Of a DNA stretch of 29,968 bases, positions 9,085 to 22,952 are shown one piece after another (the first letter of the stretch is position 1; every line of letters begins with the position of its first letter). The notes beneath the pieces were generated by a model that was not told the DNA's origin, made no database searches, and saw only the letters and a list, made by a program, of their open reading frames with translations. The stretch comes from Pelagibacteraceae bacterium TMED65. Its GTDB lineage: Bacteria; Pseudomonadota; Alphaproteobacteria; TMED127. Location: the NCBI GenBank assembly GCA_002167215.1, contig NHDS01000036.1:19147-49114 (forward strand), given 5' to 3'. Made by a program: the position numbers and the translations under genes.

Positions 9085-9281
9085 AACAAACTAATTGTAA
9101 TAATTGTATCCACTTTTACGTTACATATAAAAGAAGCTTTCCCTACGGTTGTAGAGCATTTGGAATAGTATCTAAAAAAAATCCATATTTGGAAATAAAA
9201 AAAGTTTCTGGCACAAATTGTGCACTATTTTCAAAAAGAATAAAAAATGATAAAATAAATTTTAAAGGAAGAATTGCATGA
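9081..9281 (+). CDS. Four-cysteine small protein (CxxC...C...C)
   Basis: This is a 66-residue soluble protein. The cysteines are spaced as C-x2-C-H-F (residues ~6-9), 'FPYGCRAFGIVSKK' (Cys ~24) and 'SGTNCALF' (Cys ~47), a pattern that could hold a metal. I recall a family of short bacterial proteins of the form CxxC-x-H/Y-F...FP-x-GC-x-A-x-G...C, often mislabelled as uracil-DNA glycosylase. I know of no established function. It is coupled by ATGA overlaps to both neighbours (9081-9084 and 9278-9281), so it is a genuine operon member. Confidence 0.7.
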   Translation: MKQTNCNNCIHFYVTYKRSFPYGCRAFGIVSKKNPYLEIKKVSGTNCALFSKRIKNDKINFKGRIA

Positions 9282-10003
9282 CTCAACAACTTAATGCAAT
9301 GCAAGAAAGCATAAAAATCGCACTAGATGCAGCAGATGCAGCAACTGACGTCACGTCTGAGTACAAAAGAATAAAAAACGAATATTTAAAAACGGAGCAA
9401 AAAATGAAAGAAATTCATAAATATACAACTATCATTTTTTCTGGTTCAATTGCCACAGCGGTTATTGCTATAATTTTGACTGGTTTATTATATTTTAAAT
9501 CATTGTCAGAATTAGAAGAAATGACGAGTACTAGTAGAGAGGCCTTGGTGGTGTTTGCAGAAAATGTTGAAAATGTGAATAAAGCAGTTGATAATATGAA
9601 TTCAAGTCTTGCGAGGCACACTGATCTTTTAAATGCTAGTGAAGAAATGAAATCAAAAATAGAGGATCTTTCTAGTGCTATAAATTCCAATGACAAAAAA
9701 CTAATGATAAACTTATCCAAAGAAATTACAAATCTATCGAGCGGTCTTTCTAAATCAATTAAAAACGAAACTGAAAAGCTTGGAAAATCCATTCAAGAAT
9801 CTGGAGTTATTACATCAGCGAATGTTAATAAAGAAATCGGAAAATTGTTAAAAGACAACAAAAAAAATCAAAATGTTAAACTCTTAAAAGAACTTTCTAA
9901 CAGCACTTCATCACTTAATGCTGCATTAGAGGCAATTTCCAGTCAAAACAAGCTTTTGGTTAAGGAAATTAAAGATCAAAAAGAAAATATTACCTTCCCA
10001 TAA
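9278..10003 (+). CDS. Membrane-anchored coiled-coil protein
   Basis: A 241-residue protein of unknown function. A short N-terminal helical region (1-47) precedes one membrane helix at ~48-70 (TTIIFSGSIATAVIAIILTG). A long Ser/Asn/Glu/Lys-rich helix of ~165 residues follows, with heptad spacing of Leu/Ile/Val and without Pro or Cys until the end. The shape recalls the signalling stalk of chemoreceptors, but I see no HAMP domain or the conserved chemoreceptor tip (E-I-x-x-I-V), so it is not a receptor by sequence. It starts in an ATGA overlap with the preceding gene, within the flagellar operon. A structural or spacer role at the membrane is a guess. Confidence 0.65.
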   Translation: MTQQLNAMQESIKIALDAADAATDVTSEYKRIKNEYLKTEQKMKEIHKYTTIIFSGSIATAVIAIILTGLLYFKSLSELEEMTSTSREALVVFAENVENVNKAVDNMNSSLARHTDLLNASEEMKSKIEDLSSAINSNDKKLMINLSKEITNLSSGLSKSIKNETEKLGKSIQESGVITSANVNKEIGKLLKDNKKNQNVKLLKELSNSTSSLNAALEAISSQNKLLVKEIKDQKENITFP

Positions 10004-10801: not shown

Positions 10802-11401
10802 ATGGTTGCTGATAAATACACAATACAGGCAGAAACTCTAATGAAGGCTGCTATCGAAGATTATGTTGAAATTATTGAAGAGGTGAAATCCTCAGATGCC
10901 AATTTAACTACTCTCAAAGGTCTAAGAATCAATATACAAGGAAAACCAAGAAGACTAGTAGATGTTGGTGATATAAAAAAAACTGATAATGAAAATGCTA
11001 TTCAAATTCTTGTTTTTAATACAGATCATATACCTCTATTAAATGAGAAAATTGACGAAGTAGAGTTTAATTATGAAGTCGACGGTCAATTTATAAACAT
11101 TGACCTCCCAGATCCAAGTTACAAACAATTAATGGAAGTGGTTGACGATTTAAATAGAAAACGTAATTCAGCTAATGCAAGGTTAACTAAAGCAAAATCA
11201 GAAGCCACAACAAGGGCTCGTACAGCATTAGAGAATGATTTTATTTCTCAAGGAGTAGCGAATGCAGTTTCAAGAAAATGTTCTGAAATGTACGAATCTT
11301 ATTCATCGAAAATAGACGAATTAACAATGGAAAAAATTAAAAATATTTTAGGGGATGAATATTTTGAAAAATATAAAGCGGAAGAGTTAGATTTAGAATA
11401 A
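10802..11401 (+). CDS. Divergent ribosome-recycling-factor-like protein
   Basis: A 199-residue protein that lines up along most of its length with bacterial ribosome recycling factor (185 residues) from memory of the E. coli sequence. Examples: 'TLKGLRINIQGKPRRLVDVGDI' against the strand starting LLDGIVVEYYG; 'NAIQILVFN' against TLKINVFD; 'INIDLPDPSYKQLMEVVDDLNRKRNSANARLTKAKSEA' against [38 protein letters not shown]. The conserved KIRTGRA motif is replaced by EVKSSDA, and the RNVRRDAN arginines mostly by Lys/Ser. It may therefore keep the fold but not the ribosomal function. It is the last gene of the fliO operon, not in the usual tsf-pyrH-frr setting. I infer a paralogue with a flagellar or unknown task. 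Confidence 0.6.
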   Translation: MVADKYTIQAETLMKAAIEDYVEIIEEVKSSDANLTTLKGLRINIQGKPRRLVDVGDIKKTDNENAIQILVFNTDHIPLLNEKIDEVEFNYEVDGQFINIDLPDPSYKQLMEVVDDLNRKRNSANARLTKAKSEATTRARTALENDFISQGVANAVSRKCSEMYESYSSKIDELTMEKIKNILGDEYFEKYKAEELDLE

Positions 11402-15941: not shown

Positions 15942-17402
15942 ATGCAAATTTCACAGAATCTAAAGTTAAAGCAAAGTCAATCTTTAGTAATGACTCCGCA
16001 GCTTCAACAAGCTATAAAATTACTTCAACTTAATAATCTTGAGTTAACAAATCTAGTAAACAAAGAACTTGAAGAAAATCCATTTCTTGAGAATGATAGT
16101 GTTGAGATAGATGATCAACACAACTCTGATTTTGAAGAAACAAGTGATATAAGTGATTCATTTGAAAATGGAGAATCCATGGAAGATGAACCAAAAAATG
16201 AAGATTATGAGAATAGATGGGATACGGACACTTCTTATGAGACATTCAAAAAAGGGAATTCCGGAGATTTATCAGATGCAGGTAGCGTAATTGAACAAAC
16301 ATTGAGTAATAAAGTTTCTCTCAAGTCAATCCTTCAAAATCAAGCAGACTTAGAATTTATTTCAAATAAAGAAAAAAATATATCAGAAATTTTAATTGAT
16401 TATATTGATGAAAATGGATGGATTACTGAAAATCTATATAATATTTCTGAATTCAGTGGATTTGATGTATTGGATATTGAAAAAGTTTTAAAAGTTATGC
16501 AAACATTTGAACCTGACGGTGTCTTTGCCAGAAATTTGAAAGAATGCTTAAAGATTCAACTTAAAAATAAGTTAATACTAGATCAGAATAATGAAATAAT
16601 TGTAGACAATTTAGAGATGTTGGGAAATGGAAATATCAAATCACTTCAAAAGTTAACTTCTCTCAAAGAGGAAGAAATTAAAGAACAAATAAGAATTATT
16701 CGTTCTTTAAACCCAAGGCCAGGAAAAAAATATTCAGAAGATAATAAGAATATATTTCATCCCGATGTTATCGTTTCTAAAAACAATGCTGATTGGTCGG
16801 TGGAATTAAATGAAAGTACACTTCCAAAAATTACGATAAATGATGATTACGTAAAAGAAATTGAAAATCTGAATTGCGGGGAATCAGACAAAAAATTCAT
16901 TAATGAATCCTTAAATTCAGCCAAGTGGTTATTAAAAGCAATTCAACAAAGAAACTTAACTACGTTAAAGATTAGTTCTGAAATCGTAAATCAACAAAAA
17001 CTTTTTTTTGAAAAAGGAAAGAAATTTTTAAAACCTATGGTTTTGAAGGATGTGGCCAAGAAAATTAATATGCATGAAAGTACAGTAAGTAGAGTCACTT
17101 CAGATAAACTTATGCTTACTCCAAGAGGAATATTTGAAATGAAATTATTTTTCAGTGCCTCAATTAGTAGTACAAAAAAAGGTGAAACACACTCTGCAGA
17201 ATCTGTTAGAGAGTCACTTAAAAAATTAATAAGCTCTGAGCCTTTAAATAGTCCTCTAAGTGATGAAATGTTGGTAGAAAGATTGCAAGCTGAAGGAATT
17301 GATCTTGCCAGAAGGACTGTAGCCAAATATAGAGAACTCCTTAACATTCCAGCATCCTCTGTAAGAAGAAAGATAATGAAGATTCAAAATATCAATGTAT
17401 AA
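15942..17402 (+). CDS. rpoN: RNA polymerase sigma-54 factor RpoN
   Basis: This sigma factor recognises -24/-12 promoters and needs an AAA+ activator. Region I is clear: 'LKLKQSQSLVMTPQLQQAIKLLQLNNLELTNLVNKELEENPFLE' (residues ~7-50). An acidic region II follows (~52-110), then the core-binding domain (~115-300). The helix-turn-helix lies near 'VLKDVAKKINMHESTVSRVT', and the diagnostic RpoN box ARRTVAKYRE sits at 456-465 (ARRTVAKYRELLNIPASSVRR). The length of 486 is normal. AAAGGA precedes the ATG. The usual downstream hpf and ptsN genes are absent; the window instead carries a minus-strand set of sigma-54 targets. Eight matching promoters within 20 kb suggest this factor serves mainly motility here. 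Confidence 0.97.
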   Translation: MQISQNLKLKQSQSLVMTPQLQQAIKLLQLNNLELTNLVNKELEENPFLENDSVEIDDQHNSDFEETSDISDSFENGESMEDEPKNEDYENRWDTDTSYETFKKGNSGDLSDAGSVIEQTLSNKVSLKSILQNQADLEFISNKEKNISEILIDYIDENGWITENLYNISEFSGFDVLDIEKVLKVMQTFEPDGVFARNLKECLKIQLKNKLILDQNNEIIVDNLEMLGNGNIKSLQKLTSLKEEEIKEQIRIIRSLNPRPGKKYSEDNKNIFHPDVIVSKNNADWSVELNESTLPKITINDDYVKEIENLNCGESDKKFINESLNSAKWLLKAIQQRNLTTLKISSEIVNQQKLFFEKGKKFLKPMVLKDVAKKINMHESTVSRVTSDKLMLTPRGIFEMKLFFSASISSTKKGETHSAESVRESLKKLISSEPLNSPLSDEMLVERLQAEGIDLARRTVAKYRELLNIPASSVRRKIMKIQNINV

Positions 17403-17503: not shown

Positions 17504-17674
17504 CTAGGAATACTTTATATTTTTTATTTCTTTACTTGAATGATCCAAGAAATGTGAAATTGGGTAAACATCAGTTTTTACGTGCTTATCTTTTTCAAAA
17601 TGTGAAATTTTGATCATTGGATTCAATGTTGACAGATTATAATTTTTTTCATTAGCTTTGAATTCTTCTTTCAT
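17504..17674 (-). CDS. 56-residue protein with its own sigma-54 promoter
   Basis: A short gene, 56 residues, beginning MKEEFKANEKNYNLSTLNPM and ending KNIKYS. It has an excellent ribosome site (AAAGGAGA at 17679-17686, 5 bases from the ATG) and a near-consensus sigma-54 promoter 28 bases upstream of the start. These two signals in tandem make it a real gene despite its size. It is hydrophilic, with no membrane helix or Cys. 'ISHF' occurs twice, at ~23-26 and ~39-42 ('MIKISHFEKDK' and 'YPISHFLDH'). I do not recognise the protein. Candidates by context are a flagellar chaperone, an anti-sigma-like regulator or a small scaffold partner; nothing in the sequence decides. Confidence 0.75.
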   Translation of the reverse strand: MKEEFKANEKNYNLSTLNPMIKISHFEKDKHVKTDVYPISHFLDHSSKEIKNIKYS

Positions 17675-17701
17675 ATTATCTCCTTTATATGTCCTTAACA
17701 G

Positions 17702-17718
17702 TGCAATTACCCTGCCAA
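17702..17718 (-). promoter_or_regulatory. Sigma-54 promoter of the 56-residue gene
   Basis: TTGGCAGGGTAATTGCA on the minus strand: GG at 17716-17715 and GC at 17704-17703, 12 bases apart and close to consensus. The predicted start is about 17691, leaving a ~17-base leader that contains the full Shine-Dalgarno. Confidence 0.83.
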
Positions 17719-17728
17719 TTAACTATTT

Positions 17729-18340
17729 TTAGATTCTTTCTTTATCCAAAACATTTTTAAAAAATTCAATTTGATCTCTATTTTTCTCTACAAATTCTTT
17801 TTTAACAACAATCTTTTTTTGTCTTAAATTATTCCAGAAGGAATAAACCTTTTTAAGATATTTTCTTTGTTTATTTGGATGGGAAGAATGATATCTCGAA
17901 ATGGCCTTGTTCCATGACTTATGTCTTTTAAATAATTTGGCCAGAAAAATAGCTGCATACCTTACATTTTCTTCTGGTTCAATCATTTGTGCAAAACTAT
18001 CGAAGTTGCTCAGGTGATATTTTGTGTTAATTTGCATACATCCTACATCTATACTTTTTTTATCTCTATTTTGCTCCAAATAATTGATTACATCTTCCTT
18101 CCTGTCAAAATAGATTGGTTTACCTTCAACATTTAAAGTCCAAGGCCAAGAAGAAAAATTTTTGTTTTCTTTTTTTATTCCTGACTCTACAAGGGAAATT
18201 GATGTTAATAGATTAGTAGGAAGGTTAAACTTTTTTCCAAACTTTTCTGTATAAAAATTACAGGTATTTAAACTTTTTGAACTTAAATCACTACAAAATA
18301 AGATTGCAAATAAGAATAACAGTACTTTATTTTCTCTCAT
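17729..18340 (-). CDS. Periplasmic lytic transglycosylase (SLT family)
   Basis: This 203-residue enzyme probably cleaves the glycan backbone of peptidoglycan. A signal peptide (~1-22, VLLFLFAILFCSDLSS) is followed by the SLT fold: 'FNLPTNLLTSISLVESG' with catalytic Glu E52, the alphaproteobacterial insert 'WPWTLNVEGKPIYF', then 'SIDVGCMQINTKYH' and 'EENVRYAAIFLAKLFKRHKSWNKAISRYHSS'. Enzymes of this subtype are often found with flagellar genes. It has its own sigma-54 promoter, with the predicted transcript start one base before the ATG. No upstream in-frame ATG, GTG or TTG separates the promoter from this start, so the mRNA is probably leaderless. Confidence 0.88.
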   Translation of the reverse strand: MRENKVLLFLFAILFCSDLSSKSLNTCNFYTEKFGKKFNLPTNLLTSISLVESGIKKENKNFSSWPWTLNVEGKPIYFDRKEDVINYLEQNRDKKSIDVGCMQINTKYHLSNFDSFAQMIEPEENVRYAAIFLAKLFKRHKSWNKAISRYHSSHPNKQRKYLKKVYSFWNNLRQKKIVVKKEFVEKNRDQIEFFKNVLDKERI

Positions 18341-18352
18341 ACAACTGTATGA
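18335..18352. repeat. Inverted repeat spanning the transglycosylase start codon
   Basis: On the minus strand CTCATAC-AGTT-GTATGAG: perfect 7-base arms with a 4-base centre. The right arm contains the ATG. It lies directly downstream of the -12 element, so it could be an operator. In a leaderless transcript the left arm would not be transcribed, so an RNA hairpin is unlikely. Confidence 0.5.
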
Positions 18353-18368
18353 GCAAATTAAATGCCAA
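18352..18368 (-). promoter_or_regulatory. Sigma-54 promoter of the lytic transglycosylase gene
   Basis: TTGGCATTTAATTTGCT on the minus strand, with GG at 18366-18365 and GC at 18354-18353. Exactly 12 bases separate the GC from the ATG, placing the predicted start at about 18341. It lies between the M23 gene stop and the transglycosylase start. Confidence 0.8.
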
Positions 18369-18371
18369 TTT

Positions 18372-19748
18372 TTATTTTTTTATTATAGAGCTACTTATTA
18401 AATCTCTTCCTACTGAAATAAAGTCATATGGGTTTACTGATTTTCCATTAACTTTAATTTCATAATGCAGATGCGCACCTACTGCTCTCCCAGTTGAGCC
18501 CATTTTACCAATCACTTGTCCCTCCGTAACATAGGAACCTTTCTTCACGTTTAATCTATGCAAATGACCGTATAATGTTGTAACTCCATGTTTATGAACA
18601 ACCTTTATTGTTTTTCCAAAGGATCCATTTCTTCCAGAAAATGAAACATAACCATCAGCTGGTGCTCTAACTTCCTCTTGCCAAGTTCCCGCCATATCAA
18701 TACCGTGATGCATTTGCTTTCTTTTTGACTTTGGATGTATTCTAAATCCATACGGACTTGAAACATAATAATATTGCATAGGTGGTTTTAGAGGAACAAA
18801 AATTATAGCATCTTTTAAATCTTGAAGAATTTGGAATCTAAGTGAAGTATAATCCAATAATTCCTCGTTATCACTAACATTGATATTTTCTGTTAGCAAA
18901 TTGTTAATCCTAAAAATATCTAATTTTTCTGGTTGTAGTTTTAGCTTTTCAAAAACGTTCATCAACTGAATGATTTCAGAGTCTATTTTTTTTGTAAAAT
19001 TAATAATCTTTAACTTTTTTGTTCGGGGAGCAATAAATGGAATTACTGGCAATTTATTGTAAGCAAATTTATCTTTGTTAATTTTAGTAACTTTTGAATG
19101 TTCCGCTTTACTTTCAAGAGTATGCTCCATTGCGATCATTTCTGGGCTAGCTAGCTTTGAAAATTGTTCAAATTTTATTTCATCTGAATGATTTACATCG
19201 TCAGGAAAATCTATTGCTATGTTCCCCATCATACTTCTTAGATTAGCTAATTTTTGCCTTATTTGGTTTTGGATATTCTTAGATTTATCTTTATTTTGAT
19301 TTAGCTCATCTTCTCTACTGATAACAATTTGTATTTTTTCAGAATTAATATTCTGCTCCAAAATGGCTTTCTCTTTTGCAAGATCTTTCAAAGTTTGAAT
19401 TTCAGTTTTTGTAAAACTTTGATTTGTTATTTCAGTATTCTTATAAGTTAAATATGAAAAAAAAGACGAAAAACCAAAAAAAATCAATTGTAAAGATTTG
19501 AAGACAAAAACTAAAGCCAAAATTAAAGCGGATATATAATGCTTAATATTAAAAACAACTTCTATCGGACCTTTTTTTGTAAAATATAAAAACCTTCTTT
19601 CTTTGAGTAAAAGTCTAAGATTATTGGAAAAAACACTCAAATTTTTTGAAAAAATACTCGTTTCTCCAAATCTTTGACTTGATTTAAAATTACTCAAAAC
19701 ACCGGATTTTATAGTATTAAAAGATATTCTTTTAAAAAATTTATCCAT
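18372..19748 (-). CDS. M23 metallopeptidase linked to bactofilins
   Basis: A membrane-anchored peptidoglycan endopeptidase of 458 residues. One membrane helix lies at ~70-95 (HYISALILALVFVFKSLQLIFFG), a coiled-coil stretch at ~105-165, then the M23 domain at ~325-440. Zinc ligands are visible: H347 and D351 (HHGIDMA) and the HLH at 426-428 (GAHLHYEI), with 'YGHLHRLNVKKGSYVTEGQVIGKMGSTG' between. The N-terminal 'FLYFTKKGPIEVVF' stretch is cytoplasmic. Neighbouring bactofilin and M23 genes are a known morphogenesis pairing (for example BacA-LmdC in stalked alphaproteobacteria). It follows the tail-anchor gene by 5 bases and is probably transcribed with it. Confidence 0.92.
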   Translation of the reverse strand: MDKFFKRISFNTIKSGVLSNFKSSQRFGETSIFSKNLSVFSNNLRLLLKERRFLYFTKKGPIEVVFNIKHYISALILALVFVFKSLQLIFFGFSSFFSYLTYKNTEITNQSFTKTEIQTLKDLAKEKAILEQNINSEKIQIVISREDELNQNKDKSKNIQNQIRQKLANLRSMMGNIAIDFPDDVNHSDEIKFEQFSKLASPEMIAMEHTLESKAEHSKVTKINKDKFAYNKLPVIPFIAPRTKKLKIINFTKKIDSEIIQLMNVFEKLKLQPEKLDIFRINNLLTENINVSDNEELLDYTSLRFQILQDLKDAIIFVPLKPPMQYYYVSSPYGFRIHPKSKRKQMHHGIDMAGTWQEEVRAPADGYVSFSGRNGSFGKTIKVVHKHGVTTLYGHLHRLNVKKGSYVTEGQVIGKMGSTGRAVGAHLHYEIKVNGKSVNPYDFISVGRDLISSSIIKK

Positions 19749-19753
19749 TTAAC

Positions 19754-20332
19754 TTACTTAAGATATAGAACAATAACTAACATCATATTAGTTAGTAATT
19801 GCATAAGCATAATCAATAACATTAGTTTCCAAGAAATTGGGTTGCTTACATTTAAGCTAAATTGAGGAAATGGCTGTTTTTCATCAAGTTTGACAGATTG
19901 CTTGTTCTCATCCACTACTCGATCGTTTTGATAATCATCATATTTTTTAAAGCTCTCTTTATGAGATTTTTTTGTATCAGAATATTGAGTGTAACTAATG
20001 TCTTCATAAGATTTGGCGTTTTCTTCTTTAATTTTTGCGGTTTTATCAGGATGTATTTCTTTTTCAACATTTTGAGTCATAACAGTTTTTATCTTAGAAA
20101 CTTCAATTTCAGATGGTTCTTCTTTTTGAACTCGATTAGGTTTTATGACCTGTTCTTCAAATTTTTGATTTTCTCTAACGGCTTCTCTATGACTTTGGGC
20201 TCGATCTTTAACTTTTGAAAAATCATTTGCTGGATTTTTTTTATCCTTTTGAATTTCTTGTGGATTTGGGACAGTCATTTGATTTCTCATTTTTTCTATT
20301 CTATCTCTTATATCTATAACTTGTTCTGTCAT
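19754..20332 (-). CDS. Tail-anchored hydrophilic protein upstream of the M23 peptidase
   Basis: A 192-residue protein, almost wholly charged (Lys, Glu, Asp, Gln) except for a C-terminal membrane helix at ~168-190 (WKLMLLIMLMQLLTNMMLVIVLY). The start 'MTEQVIDIRDRIEKMRNQM' is a likely amphipathic helix. This shape suggests a cytoplasmic adaptor held at the inner membrane. I do not recognise a family. Its place between a sigma-54 promoter and the M23 gene, divergent from three bactofilins, makes it a candidate linker between the bactofilin scaffold and the membrane enzyme. Confidence 0.72.
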   Translation of the reverse strand: MTEQVIDIRDRIEKMRNQMTVPNPQEIQKDKKNPANDFSKVKDRAQSHREAVRENQKFEEQVIKPNRVQKEEPSEIEVSKIKTVMTQNVEKEIHPDKTAKIKEENAKSYEDISYTQYSDTKKSHKESFKKYDDYQNDRVVDENKQSVKLDEKQPFPQFSLNVSNPISWKLMLLIMLMQLLTNMMLVIVLYLK

Positions 20333-20374
20333 AATAATTTCAAAGTACTATAATTTATTATAAAAGTAAATTTA

Positions 20375-20391
20375 TGCATTTAGTAAGCCAA
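20375..20391 (-). promoter_or_regulatory. Sigma-54 promoter of the tail-anchor/M23 operon
   Basis: TTGGCTTACTAAATGCA on the minus strand, with GG at 20389-20388 and GC at 20377-20376, 12 bases apart. The predicted start is about 20364, with a 31-base leader that lacks an obvious Shine-Dalgarno. The -24 box is good; the spacer-side bases differ from consensus. Confidence 0.68.
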
Positions 20392-20426
20392 AATTAATAA
20401 TAAAAACTTTTTTTTTAATTTTTTTT

Positions 20427-20437
20427 ATGATAATCAT
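20427..20437. promoter_or_regulatory. Short palindrome between divergent sigma-54 promoters
   Basis: ATGAT-A-ATCAT lies in the 68 bases between the two outward-facing sigma-54 promoters. A shared activator could bind here and serve both. A second candidate is GTCAAGTCTTTAAC (20446-20459), which matches GTCA-N6-TGAC at 7 of 8 fixed bases. Both are short and could be chance in AT-rich DNA. Confidence 0.3.
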
Positions 20438-20459
20438 TAATAACCGTCAAGTCTTTAAC

Positions 20460-20476
20460 TTGGCAAAGTTATTGCA
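20460..20476 (+). promoter_or_regulatory. Sigma-54 promoter of the three bactofilin genes
   Basis: TTGGCAAAGTTATTGCA has GG at 20462-20463 and GC at 20474-20475, 12 bases apart, and is close to consensus. Twelve bases separate the GC from the ATG of the first bactofilin, so the transcript is predicted to begin about one base before the start codon. Confidence 0.83.
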
Positions 20477-20487
20477 GTGTCTTTAAA

Positions 20488-20883
20488 ATGTTTTCAAGAG
20501 ATTCCGATAAATCAACAAAAAGTTCTAGTTCATCCAGCGTGATTGGAACTGAAATGCAAATAAGTGGCAATATTAAATGTAATGGAAACCTTATTCTAAA
20601 AGGTAAAGTCAAAGGTAACATTGAATGTGAAAACATGAGCATTTCTGCAGAAGGTAATTTAAAAGGAAATATTAAGGCATTTGAATGTATAATTGGTGGT
20701 AATTTCGAAGGAGATGTTTTCGCTGATTCACTAGCTATCGAATCCGCTGCAAATATCAGAGGTAACATGTATTATAATAACTTAAGGGCTCAACCTGGTG
20801 CAAAGTTAGAAGTTCAATTGTTTAAAGGACTTGAAAAAGAAAAAAAAAGTCAAAACACGCCCAAAAAATCAAAAGGAACATAA
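20488..20883 (+). CDS. Bactofilin 1
   Basis: Bactofilins polymerise without nucleotide into cytoskeletal filaments through a right-handed beta-helix. This 131-residue copy has the usual short disordered tails around a repeat core: 'EMQISGNIKCNGNLILKGKVKGNIECENMSISAEGNLKGNIKA', 'GNFEGDVFADSLAIESAANIRGNMYY'. The start MFSRDSDKS is typical of the family, so I keep the ATG at 20488 although there is no room for a ribosome site after the predicted sigma-54 start. The next Met (residue 23) would remove the N-terminal tail that usually contacts the membrane. The second copy starts 3 bases after its stop. Confidence 0.92.
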   Translation: MFSRDSDKSTKSSSSSSVIGTEMQISGNIKCNGNLILKGKVKGNIECENMSISAEGNLKGNIKAFECIIGGNFEGDVFADSLAIESAANIRGNMYYNNLRAQPGAKLEVQLFKGLEKEKKSQNTPKKSKGT

Positions 20884-20886
20884 TCT

Positions 20887-21255
20887 ATGGCAGATAATCA
20901 ATCTATAATAGGAAGAGACGCAATATTTAAAGGAAAAATTTCAAATGCTTCTACAATTGAAATTAATGGAAGAGTTGAGGCTGATATCAAATCAGAAAAA
21001 GTAACACTAGGTAAAAATGCTTCTTTAGAAGGATCGATCATTTCAGAGTTGGTTGTAATATCAGGAAATTATCAAGGTAAAATAAAGGCAGACTCAGTCT
21101 GGCTTACAGATTCATCTGTTATCACAGGAGAAATTAACTATAAATCATTGCAAATGGACAGAGGCGCTGCACTTAATTGTAAAATTATTCACAATTGGGA
21201 TGAAAAAAAATTAAAAAATAAAAAAAATATTGATAGTGAAGATTCTGATGATTAA
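20887..21255 (+). CDS. Bactofilin 2
   Basis: A second, clearly different bactofilin of 122 residues: 'SIIGRDAIFKGKISNASTIEINGRVEADIKSEKVTLGKNASLEGSIISELVVISGNYQGKIKADSVWLTDSSVITGEINYKSLQMDRGAALNC'. The beta-helix repeat is complete. The C-terminal tail is a short Lys/Asn/Asp-rich stretch. It has no good Shine-Dalgarno and starts 3 bases after bactofilin 1, so translation is likely coupled. Two co-expressed paralogues would allow mixed filaments. Confidence 0.92.
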   Translation: MADNQSIIGRDAIFKGKISNASTIEINGRVEADIKSEKVTLGKNASLEGSIISELVVISGNYQGKIKADSVWLTDSSVITGEINYKSLQMDRGAALNCKIIHNWDEKKLKNKKNIDSEDSDD

Positions 21256-21273
21256 AAATTTAGGAGATTAACA

Positions 21274-21591
21274 ATGAGTGATATAACATACATAAATAAA
21301 GATCTACTGATGGAAGGCTCCCTGGAGTCTAAAGATGGTCAAGTTGTTATAGCTGGTCACTTTAAAGGTAATGTAGTTGCAAGATCAGTAGTAATAGAAC
21401 CTTCCGCATTATTTAACGGCAATATAAATGCTGAACATTTAAAAGTTGAAGGAAAAGTAGATGGAGACATCACTGCCGATCTTCTTGAAGTTTCGAATAG
21501 TGGAGTAATTGACGGAAAGTTAAAGACAAACTCATTATCAGTTGATACTGGTGCACAAATATCAGGAAATGTTGGAAGAATCTCTACTTAA
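21274..21591 (+). CDS. Bactofilin 3
   Basis: The third and shortest bactofilin, 105 residues, almost only beta-helix: 'DLLMEGSLESKDGQVVIAGHFKGNVVARSVVIEPSALFNGNINAEHLKVEGKVDGDITADLLEVSNSGVIDGKLKTNSLSVDTGAQISGNV'. Both tails are minimal, unlike copy 1. It has the best ribosome site of the three (AGGAG, 8 bases before the ATG), so it may be the most abundant. Its 3' end overlaps by 30 bases a convergent minus-strand gene. Confidence 0.92.
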   Translation: MSDITYINKDLLMEGSLESKDGQVVIAGHFKGNVVARSVVIEPSALFNGNINAEHLKVEGKVDGDITADLLEVSNSGVIDGKLKTNSLSVDTGAQISGNVGRIST

Positions 21592-21921: not shown

Positions 21922-22305
21922 ATGAAAAAAAAAACACCAAATCTTCCAATCAAAGCTAAACAAAATGAAGTGATAACAGTTAATCAAGAAAAATCCAATT
22001 CTTTAGAAATCACTCAAAAACTTCATCATCTAAAAAACAGAGCTGACGTTAGGAAATTTCTTCCGGATATTCTTGGAAGAGTATTAGCTAGAATATGGAT
22101 TGATTCAAACTTTAAAGAAGAGTTTGAGCAAGATCCACAAAAAACACTAGAATTTAATGGGGTCTATTTACCTGAAGATATGTCTATTGAATTTCAAAAA
22201 CCTAATTCTGATAGACCAAGAATTGTTGTCTATGAACAACGACCTAATTCCAGATTCAGATTGAGAGTTCTATACCTCCAACTAATAATGATGGCTGGAA
22301 GATGA
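21922..22305 (+). CDS. NHLP (nitrile hydratase-like leader) domain protein
   Basis: A 127-residue protein. After a Lys/Asn-rich N-terminus (~1-40), residues ~48-105 resemble the nitrile hydratase alpha-like leader of RiPP precursors: 'ILGRVLARIWIDSNFKEEFEQDPQKTLEFNGVYLPEDMSIEFQKPNSDRPRIVVYEQRP', compare A-x-x-D-x-x-F-x-x-x-L-x-x-D-P-x-x-A-L-x-x-x-G-x-x-x-P. The metal motif CTLCSC of true nitrile hydratase is absent. The C-terminal stretch 'RFRLRVLYLQLIMMAGR' has no Cys or Thr, so it is a poor substrate for cyclising enzymes, and no maturase is in the window. It may be a precursor, or the domain may serve another role. The stop overlaps the next start (ATGA). Confidence 0.6.
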   Translation: MKKKTPNLPIKAKQNEVITVNQEKSNSLEITQKLHHLKNRADVRKFLPDILGRVLARIWIDSNFKEEFEQDPQKTLEFNGVYLPEDMSIEFQKPNSDRPRIVVYEQRPNSRFRLRVLYLQLIMMAGR

Positions 22306-22952
22306 AGAGCATCATAAGAATTCTTATCTTTGGACTTTTTTATTCTATTTCCATTGCTAATGATCATAAAAAAGACGAAAATATTGTAAAAGATGATCAG
22401 ACTTACTACAAGGAGGGCGTAACTTATTACGATAATGGTGAGTTTAAAAAATCATTCATAGTTTTTTTTAATCTTTCTGAAAAAGGAGATAAAGATGCTA
22501 TTTTTAACCTATCTAACATGTTTTATGAGGGTATTGGCACCACTCAAGATTTTAGTGAGTCTCTGAAATATACTTGGTTATGCTCACTAAATGGAAATAA
22601 AAGGTGTTTAAAAAAAGTTAAATTTATCGAAGATAAATTGGATAAAGACGAATTTATCAAAATATCTCAAAAAATTCCTGAAATATTAGAAAATGAATTT
22701 GTAAATAATAACGATGAAATTTCAGCATTTAAACTTGGTTATTGGTACGAAAAGATTTCACCAGAAATTGATTTTGAAAAATCATATTTATGGTATTCTG
22801 TATCCGTTAGTGCTGGAGTATACAAAGCTATGAAAATGAGAGACAGGGTTAGTAAGTTGATAGAAAAAAAAAAAATTTTAGCTATTCAGGAAGAGGCAAA
22901 TCAGATCTATACTAAAGATATGTATTTTAATTCAAATAAGGAAAAAAAATGA
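22302..22952 (+). CDS. Secreted Sel1-repeat protein
   Basis: A 216-residue protein with a signal peptide (~1-19, IIRILIFGLFYSISIA). Sel1-like helical repeats start at ~38: 'YYKEGVTYYDNGEFKKSFIVFFNLSEKGDKDAIFNLSNMFYEGIGTTQDFSESLKYTWLCSLNGN', with a further repeat around ~142-180 (AFKLGYWYEK...YLWYSVSVSAG). Sel1 repeats mediate protein contacts, often in envelope or stress pathways. The gene is coupled to both neighbours by ATGA overlaps (22302-22305 and 22949-22952). A run of 12 A at 22864-22875 encodes Lys residues and is a place where sequencing or transcription could slip. Confidence 0.75.
   Translation: MKSIIRILIFGLFYSISIANDHKKDENIVKDDQTYYKEGVTYYDNGEFKKSFIVFFNLSEKGDKDAIFNLSNMFYEGIGTTQDFSESLKYTWLCSLNGNKRCLKKVKFIEDKLDKDEFIKISQKIPEILENEFVNNNDEISAFKLGYWYEKISPEIDFEKSYLWYSVSVSAGVYKAMKMRDRVSKLIEKKKILAIQEEANQIYTKDMYFNSNKEKK

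Follow-up and report, generated by a model that had tools for sequence, protein, structure and literature searches.

We analysed a 29,968-nucleotide stretch of DNA from Pelagibacteraceae bacterium TMED65 (hereafter the window), in which a block of genes for bactofilins and wall enzymes, at positions 17504 to 21591, lies beside rpoN, the gene for σ54. A preliminary description of this block had recognized three tandem bactofilins, a tail-anchored protein, an M23 peptidase, a lytic transglycosylase (LT) and a protein of 56 amino acids (aa), and all of these were confirmed:

15942..17402, plus strand: rpoN (σ54), matching NCBIfam NF004596 at 508.8 bits against a cut-off of 499
17504..17674, minus strand: s56, a 56-aa protein (56–59 aa among orthologues) with a motif common to the orthologues
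17729..18340, minus strand: LT, a small lytic transglycosylase of the SLT type (PF01464, E 1e-7)
18372..19748, minus strand: M23 peptidase, classed as LmdC-like (PF01551, E 2.3e-30)
19754..20332, minus strand: TA192, a tail-anchored protein with a C-terminal hydrophobic segment at residues 168–192
20488..20883, plus strand: bac1, a bactofilin of 131 aa (PF04519, E 9.4e-22)
20887..21255, plus strand: bac2, a bactofilin of 122 aa without an MFS start (PF04519, E 2.2e-21)
21274..21591, plus strand: bac3, a bactofilin of 105 aa that consists almost exclusively of the core domain (PF04519, E 8.5e-23)

Elsewhere the window carries the flagellar genes fliI, fliK, fliL, fliM, fliN, fliO, fliP, fliQ, fliR, flhB, motA and motB. 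The genomes closest to it are uncultured marine Alphaproteobacteria; for this group of relatives we use the working label HIMB59 order, and their assemblies are small (0.9–2.0 Mb). Pfam and NCBIfam-type profile searches placed s56 in no family above cut-off, and TA192 belongs to no accepted family, its Pfam matches all being below cut-off; TA192 has 469 homologues, and none of the 120 matches listed bears a functional name. To judge by orthologue termini and hydropathy, TA192 is built of a conserved N-terminal stretch, a variable middle and a near-invariant C-terminal membrane anchor.

The preliminary description had also proposed that each unit of the block stands behind its own σ54 promoter, of the same type as those of the flagellar operons. 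The elements found upstream of the genes are the following:

20461..20475, plus strand: bac1 σ54 site, TGGCAAAGTTATTGC, with its GC element 12 nucleotides (nt) before the ATG, found in 11 of 19 loci
18353..18367, minus strand: LT σ54 site, TGGCATTTAATTTGC, found in 19 of 19 loci
17703..17717, minus strand: s56 σ54 site, TGGCAGGGTAATTGC, found in 19 of 19 loci
20376..20390, minus strand: degenerate σ54 site of the TA192–M23 unit, TGGCTTACTAAATGC, with three mismatches
20408..20440, plus strand: a T-tract and TG-TAA block between the divergent units, kept in the 19 loci aligned and a possible σ70 promoter of the bactofilin operon

The proposal held for LT and s56, whose sites were present with 0 or 1 mismatch in every one of the 19 loci of the order that were compared (L001–L019), but it had to be narrowed for bac1, with a site in 11 loci, and for TA192–M23, with a degenerate site only. 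The flagellar counterparts in the window are at fliK (2006, a perfect match), fliO (5515) and motA (14398). Searching the window with the plain consensus gave no significant excess by count (16 hits against 10.7 ± 3.2, with 7 of 100 shuffles reaching that number); the hits being no commoner than chance, the weight rests on position and conservation. When upstream regions were aligned, the site was present in 17 of 17 for LT, 13 of 13 for s56 and 18 of 18 for motA, and the control genes, with three mismatches allowed, had none (0 of 18 for an NHLP-like gene next to the bactofilins, 0 of 18 for rpoN and 0 of 7 for fliI). These counts omit L033, L034, L037, L038 and L039, whose genomes were already counted, as well as rows with a BLAST alignment beginning after residue 15, with a low score or with too little sequence upstream. 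Three deeper genomes (G012, G015 and G030) each keep the LT site with one mismatch, and two keep the s56 site; G030 has a site at the place where s56 itself was not detected.

The GC elements of the bac1 and LT sites both fall 12 nt before the ATG (20461–20488 and 18340–18367), so that transcripts would begin near the start codon and would be leaderless. A further one-mismatch σ54 site, TGGCACAAATTGTGC, lies at 9209–9223 and has counterparts with at most two mismatches in 17 of 17 cases; being 54 nt ahead of the next gene but inside a short open frame, it could reflect either a promoter or coding constraint and was not counted.

A good consensus site for the TA192–M23 unit was rejected in favour of the degenerate one, which departs from the consensus at three positions in the window and comes within two mismatches in 3 of the 19 loci. 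The GG/GC core of this degenerate site is at the same place in all 19, in an intergenic region that is otherwise poorly conserved. As for bac1, a tree of eight concatenated genes, rooted by choice on three deep genomes, divided the 11 loci with a site into two groups, one comprising the window, L001–L006 and L014, and the other L007, L018 and L023. The site lies 12 nt from the start codon in the window group and 26–36 nt from it in the other. It was probably gained two or three times, which is simpler on this tree than four or more losses, the number of gain events being approximate because L018 joins L007 and L023 with weak support (0.288); the window group is strongly supported. L053 (genome G023), which is outside the 19, also has a bac1 site but is without TA192.

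The unevenness of these sites might be taken to mean that the block holds two unrelated neighbours, LT (with s56) being an SltF-like flagellar muramidase, much as the Fla1 flagellum of Rhodobacter sphaeroides employs a separate LT, SltF (PMC7277832), and the bactofilins and M23 being a housekeeping pair for which σ54 sites are of little consequence. It is true that LT and s56 have the sites of highest quality and conservation, in contrast to the degenerate one of M23 and the patchy one of the bactofilins. However, the retention of GG/GC in 19 of 19 loci and the presence of the bac1 site in two tree groups, at differing distances from the ATG, suggest selection for σ54 control, and we regard a chance association of this kind as improbable.

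To place the block within the wider regulon, we scored the genome of one relative, G001 (contigs joined, 1.318 Mb with 10,690 N; genes from a simple open-frame caller), with a site matrix trained only on 20 fliK, fliO and motA sites. A strong site (at least 16.3 bits, in the sense direction and within 120 nt) preceded 17 of the 1379 genes that had at least 60 nt of upstream sequence; since three of the training sites come from G001, those 3 of the 17 hits are not independent. Reversed sequence gave 0 such genes, the antisense direction 3, and 20 shuffles a mean of 0.2 with a maximum of 1. Nine of the 17 are flagellar (a flgB-like rod gene, flhA, a gene of the FlgE/F/G family, flagellin, fliS, fliK, fliO, motA and a σ54 activator, this last being flagellar by its position beside fliF only), three belong to the module (bac1, LT and s56) and five are sugar-related or other genes (a nucleotidyl transferase, a TPP enzyme, a glycosyl transferase, a methyltransferase and a TPR fragment). 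On both strands together G001 has 34 strong sites, half of them not directly before a called gene. With a simpler pattern, five genomes gave 27–39 hits each, against 1–5 for the reversed pattern. The likeness of the module's promoters to those of the flagellar genes is thus borne out, both by the conserved sites and by the flagellar share of the strong sites in G001. Three of the strong sites in G001, before the nucleotidyl transferase, TPP enzyme and glycosyl transferase, lie together on contig C2 at 57–71 kb (L090 and L091), which suggests a σ54-controlled sugar pathway, perhaps for flagellin glycosylation.

Matches to σ54 activators were found in 11 of 11 genomes of the order that were searched, and a divergent activator pair in 8 of the 11; the pair was not found in G002, G005 (a fragment only) or G006. 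In G001 the pair is just upstream of fliF (L033:6869-9273), and one member carries its own σ54 site; this fliF-linked activator had no match to a Fis-type helix-turn-helix in Pfam. Analysis of k-mer enrichment around 11 flagellar promoters, relative to 400 background regions, produced no convincing activator motif, the best uncorrected p being 8e-4. A further activator of about 480–500 aa, which we take to be NtrC-like from its length and pairing, was found in most of the 11 genomes. Sites for σ54 were also found at glnB (at a contig end) and, in weaker form, at amtB, from which it is probable that a nitrogen (NtrC) branch of σ54 exists in the same genome. These sites and the NtrC-like activator would fit an explanation in which σ54 control of the module serves nitrogen status through NtrC and not the flagellum, but with 9 of the 17 clearest upstream sites on flagellar genes, and with the module adjoining the flagellar block, we give this explanation very little credence.

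The M23 peptidase is made up of an N-terminal tail that contains ERRFLYFTKKGPIEVVF, a membrane segment (hydrophobic residues 62–97) and the M23 domain. The catalytic motifs of M23 enzymes are HxxxD and HxH, and residues H347, D351, H426 and H428 were invariant in 22 rows. The stretch ERRFLYFTKKGPIEVVF aligns by eye with FPEREFILRTEGRVVYL and with similar stretches of homologues in the class, and a structural model has strands at 51–57 and 60–66, a predicted hairpin of low confidence. Among the 28 best M23 relatives from outside the order but within the class, a bactofilin gene is directly adjacent in 25 and the hairpin motif is matched in 17. These class loci represent the top-scoring matches among those that came with a locus, and they have flanks of about 1.5 kb, too short to judge flagellar neighbours. 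None of the 28 has a σ54 site with at most one mismatch within 250 nt of the M23 gene, a limit stricter than the three mismatches accepted for TA192 within the order, so that the comparison is asymmetrical.

By its sequence, then, the M23 protein is an LmdC-like peptidase that appears to keep the type of hairpin LmdC uses for BacA. That bactofilins and M23 enzymes pair was already known, as the preliminary description had held: LmdC is recruited by BacA, and in the LmdC study its cytoplasmic hairpin is critical for BacA binding (PMC10945521). The module of the window resembles BacA–LmdC of Hyphomonas neptunium and Rhodospirillum rubrum in having neighbouring genes for a bactofilin and for an M23 peptidase that is anchored in the membrane and bears a conserved hairpin on the cytoplasmic side. 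It differs in its divergent units, its three bactofilins, its additional TA192, LT and 56-aa protein, its σ54 sites and its place beside rpoN and flagellar genes. The M23 gene is not in an operon with a bactofilin gene, the two being divergent with TA192 between them, and we therefore speak of an LmdC-like enzyme and not of a canonical lmdC–bacA operon.

The three bactofilins score 76–81 bits against the PF04519 cut-off of 27.9. The N-terminus of Bac1, MFSRDSDK, begins with an MFS[RK] start that is shared by every one of the 21 orthologue rows, two of them from genomes already represented, and resembles the membrane-targeting peptide MFSKQAKS of Caulobacter BacA (PMC12448750). Bac2 and Bac3 are without such a start, and Bac2 is 25–28% identical to Bac1. 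Bactofilins also take part in motility in a Gram-positive host, Bacillus subtilis, where they are known as BacE and BacF; we know of no M23 or LT partner gene for these two proteins. In keeping with the precedent drawn by the preliminary description, BacE and BacF were found to be needed for motility and for hook and filament assembly (PMC4627819), effects that a later paper describes as strain-dependent (PMC9103452). Because basal bodies apparently form in their absence (PMC4627819), the affected step differs from wall opening.

The LT has an SLT domain and an N-terminal signal-like segment, and Glu52, taken as its catalytic glutamate, is conserved in 15 of 15 sequences. A model of the protein, with a predicted local distance difference test score (pLDDT) of 85, gave matches to the lytic-transglycosylase fold. 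First among the Foldseek matches was EtgA (E 2.2e-3, with none at 1e-3 or better), a type III secretion lytic transglycosylase that makes way through the wall for a related export apparatus; in VIA-align, however, MltF ranked above EtgA, and MltC and Slt were level with it, so that the model speaks for the fold and for nothing narrower. A sequence search of the PDB returned no real relative (best E 0.45). Of 7 genomes, 6 have two SLT proteins: a larger one and the module LT, which is the only small SLT protein found. In 5 of 7 genomes FlgJ has an open frame of 100–110 aa with the rod-binding part only. SltF of R. sphaeroides, whose role the LT may share, is likewise a small secreted SLT enzyme of a σ54 flagellum whose FlgJ partner is a scaffold, but it is encoded in the flgG operon, whereas the LT of the window is beside the bactofilin and M23 genes.

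A genome scan yielded 20 loci of the order (L001–L019 and L023), which keep the gene order and relative orientation of the window as far as each extends. In a check of the nine genes from motA to bac3, 25 of 26 loci, among them pieces of G012, G015, G030 and G023, were consistent; the odd one was L010, where bac3 gave a cross-hit on bac1 and s56 was missed, though the orthologue search had it. All seven genes from s56 to bac3 were present in 14 of the 26, and in the deeper genomes G015, G012 and G030 the M23 protein is 51–53% identical. The neighbourhood is kept in relatives together with the LT and s56 promoters.

Across 32 genomes of the order, bactofilins, rpoN, FliP and the M23 orthologue were each found in 24, the orthologue being defined by E below 1e-60, since some M23 match exists in all 32. 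Bactofilin copies number three in 22 of the 24 genomes, two in G017 and four, across two contigs, in G007. The module is present without a FliP match in G006, G026 and G031; G022, G024 and G032 are without FliP, rpoN, PEPC and a true motA, and G027 differs from these only in having PEPC. The flagellar contig of G019 stops inside the counterpart of window positions 9278–10003, a gene third in line after flhB; in G020 this contig begins just before motA, and in G016 it stops in flhB. The contig of G023 stops just past bac1, and in G021 (locus L013) the sequence past M23 is almost wholly masked, with 9998 N in 10,000 bases. Several gaps thus fall at contig ends or in masked sequence, so that the survey is no test of loss in non-motile relatives.

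The explanation we favour, with a probability of roughly 0.45, is that an lmdC–bacA module has been captured by the flagellar σ54 regulon of the HIMB59 order and helps to open the wall for passage of the rod. A flagellar role of this kind draws support from the presence of the LT, from the shortness of FlgJ and from the regulon. The widespread alphaproteobacterial module would have been split into divergent units, would have gained TA192, LT and s56 and would have come under σ54. Bac1 would tether bactofilin filaments to the inner membrane through its MFSR tail, Bac2 and Bac3 would share in the scaffold, and the filaments would collect M23 by way of its cytoplasmic hairpin, TA192 perhaps serving as an adaptor. 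At the start of the flagellar programme, M23, cutting cross-links, and the secreted LT, cutting glycan, would be made together, and between them they would weaken a patch of wall where the flagellum is being built or next to it, letting the rod through or making room for the motor; the LT would fill an SltF-like role. Slightly less probable is the fuller proposal of a Gram-negative flagellum equipped with a cytoskeletal machine of its own for opening the wall, in which bactofilin filaments timed by σ54 would place an LmdC-type endopeptidase and a dedicated LT at the point of rod insertion, HIMB59 lineages having brought the scaffold operon under σ54 more than once.

Besides the glnB and amtB sites, several observations weigh against a flagellar role. 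The known work of BacA and LmdC is in shape: in R. rubrum they govern how the cell curves, and in Hyphomonas how its stalk and bud grow (PMC10945521). The bac1 σ54 site is absent from 8 of the 19 loci, the three deepest included, so that the part under σ54 throughout would be LT, s56 and (by its degenerate site) the M23 unit, and not the scaffold. This patchiness and the known shape roles together oppose the reading. The M23 model is of low confidence, with a mean pLDDT of 51.7. Nor need the LT be the sole candidate for a rod muramidase, the search having been limited to SLT proteins, which does not cover glucosaminidases and the like. The interpretation of the preliminary description, a scaffold for wall opening at the flagellar base that is switched on with the motor, is then partly supported: the shared promoter type agrees with it, but it falls short for the scaffold operon in the eight loci.

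The shape roles of BacA and LmdC and the eight loci without a bac1 site also speak for the strongest alternative, a cell-shape module timed with motility, in which bactofilins and M23 set curvature or pole shape, the LT trims glycan to the same end and σ54 merely co-expresses them. An elongasome would be available for such a module to modulate, MreB having been found in 7 of 7 genomes searched. A purely shape-determining role accounts less readily for the LT having its own conserved σ54 site, and for the position of the block, in all loci of the order seen, between the rpoN, motAB and fli genes and other neighbours; we consider it doubtful, though a serious contender.

Bactofilin–M23 modules and σ54 flagella were both known already; the novelty would lie in finding the two joined, the wall enzymes bearing conserved promoters. 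In agreement with the preliminary description, we found no earlier account of such a union in the open-licence PMC literature, where PMC9218911 does not appear to describe a module of this kind. How a flagellum confines its wall-cutting enzymes to the place where they are needed, sparing the rest of the wall, is an open problem, and a review of the R. sphaeroides Fla1 flagellum leaves to later work the question of where SltF is placed and how it is controlled (PMC7277832). Were our favoured explanation correct, a concrete and testable answer would be at hand in a bactofilin scaffold linked by its promoters to the flagellar programme and able to recruit an endopeptidase. Bactofilin–M23 modules would then reach beyond cell shape into the assembly of a machine, and would do so in marine bacteria whose genomes are small.

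Finally, we note two features of the surrounding sequence. The NHLP-like gene that served as a control is the first of two at 21922–22952; its product weakly resembles NHLP leader peptides (TIGR03793, 30.1 bits, below cut-off) and is followed by a Sel1-repeat protein. Both genes adjoin the bactofilins in loci of the order, and the NHLP-like protein is 72–92% identical among them. Within the flagellar block, the product of a gene at 10802–11401 carries a ribosome-recycling-factor domain (PF01765, E 1.5e-12); the gene is present in the loci of the order that reach that far.

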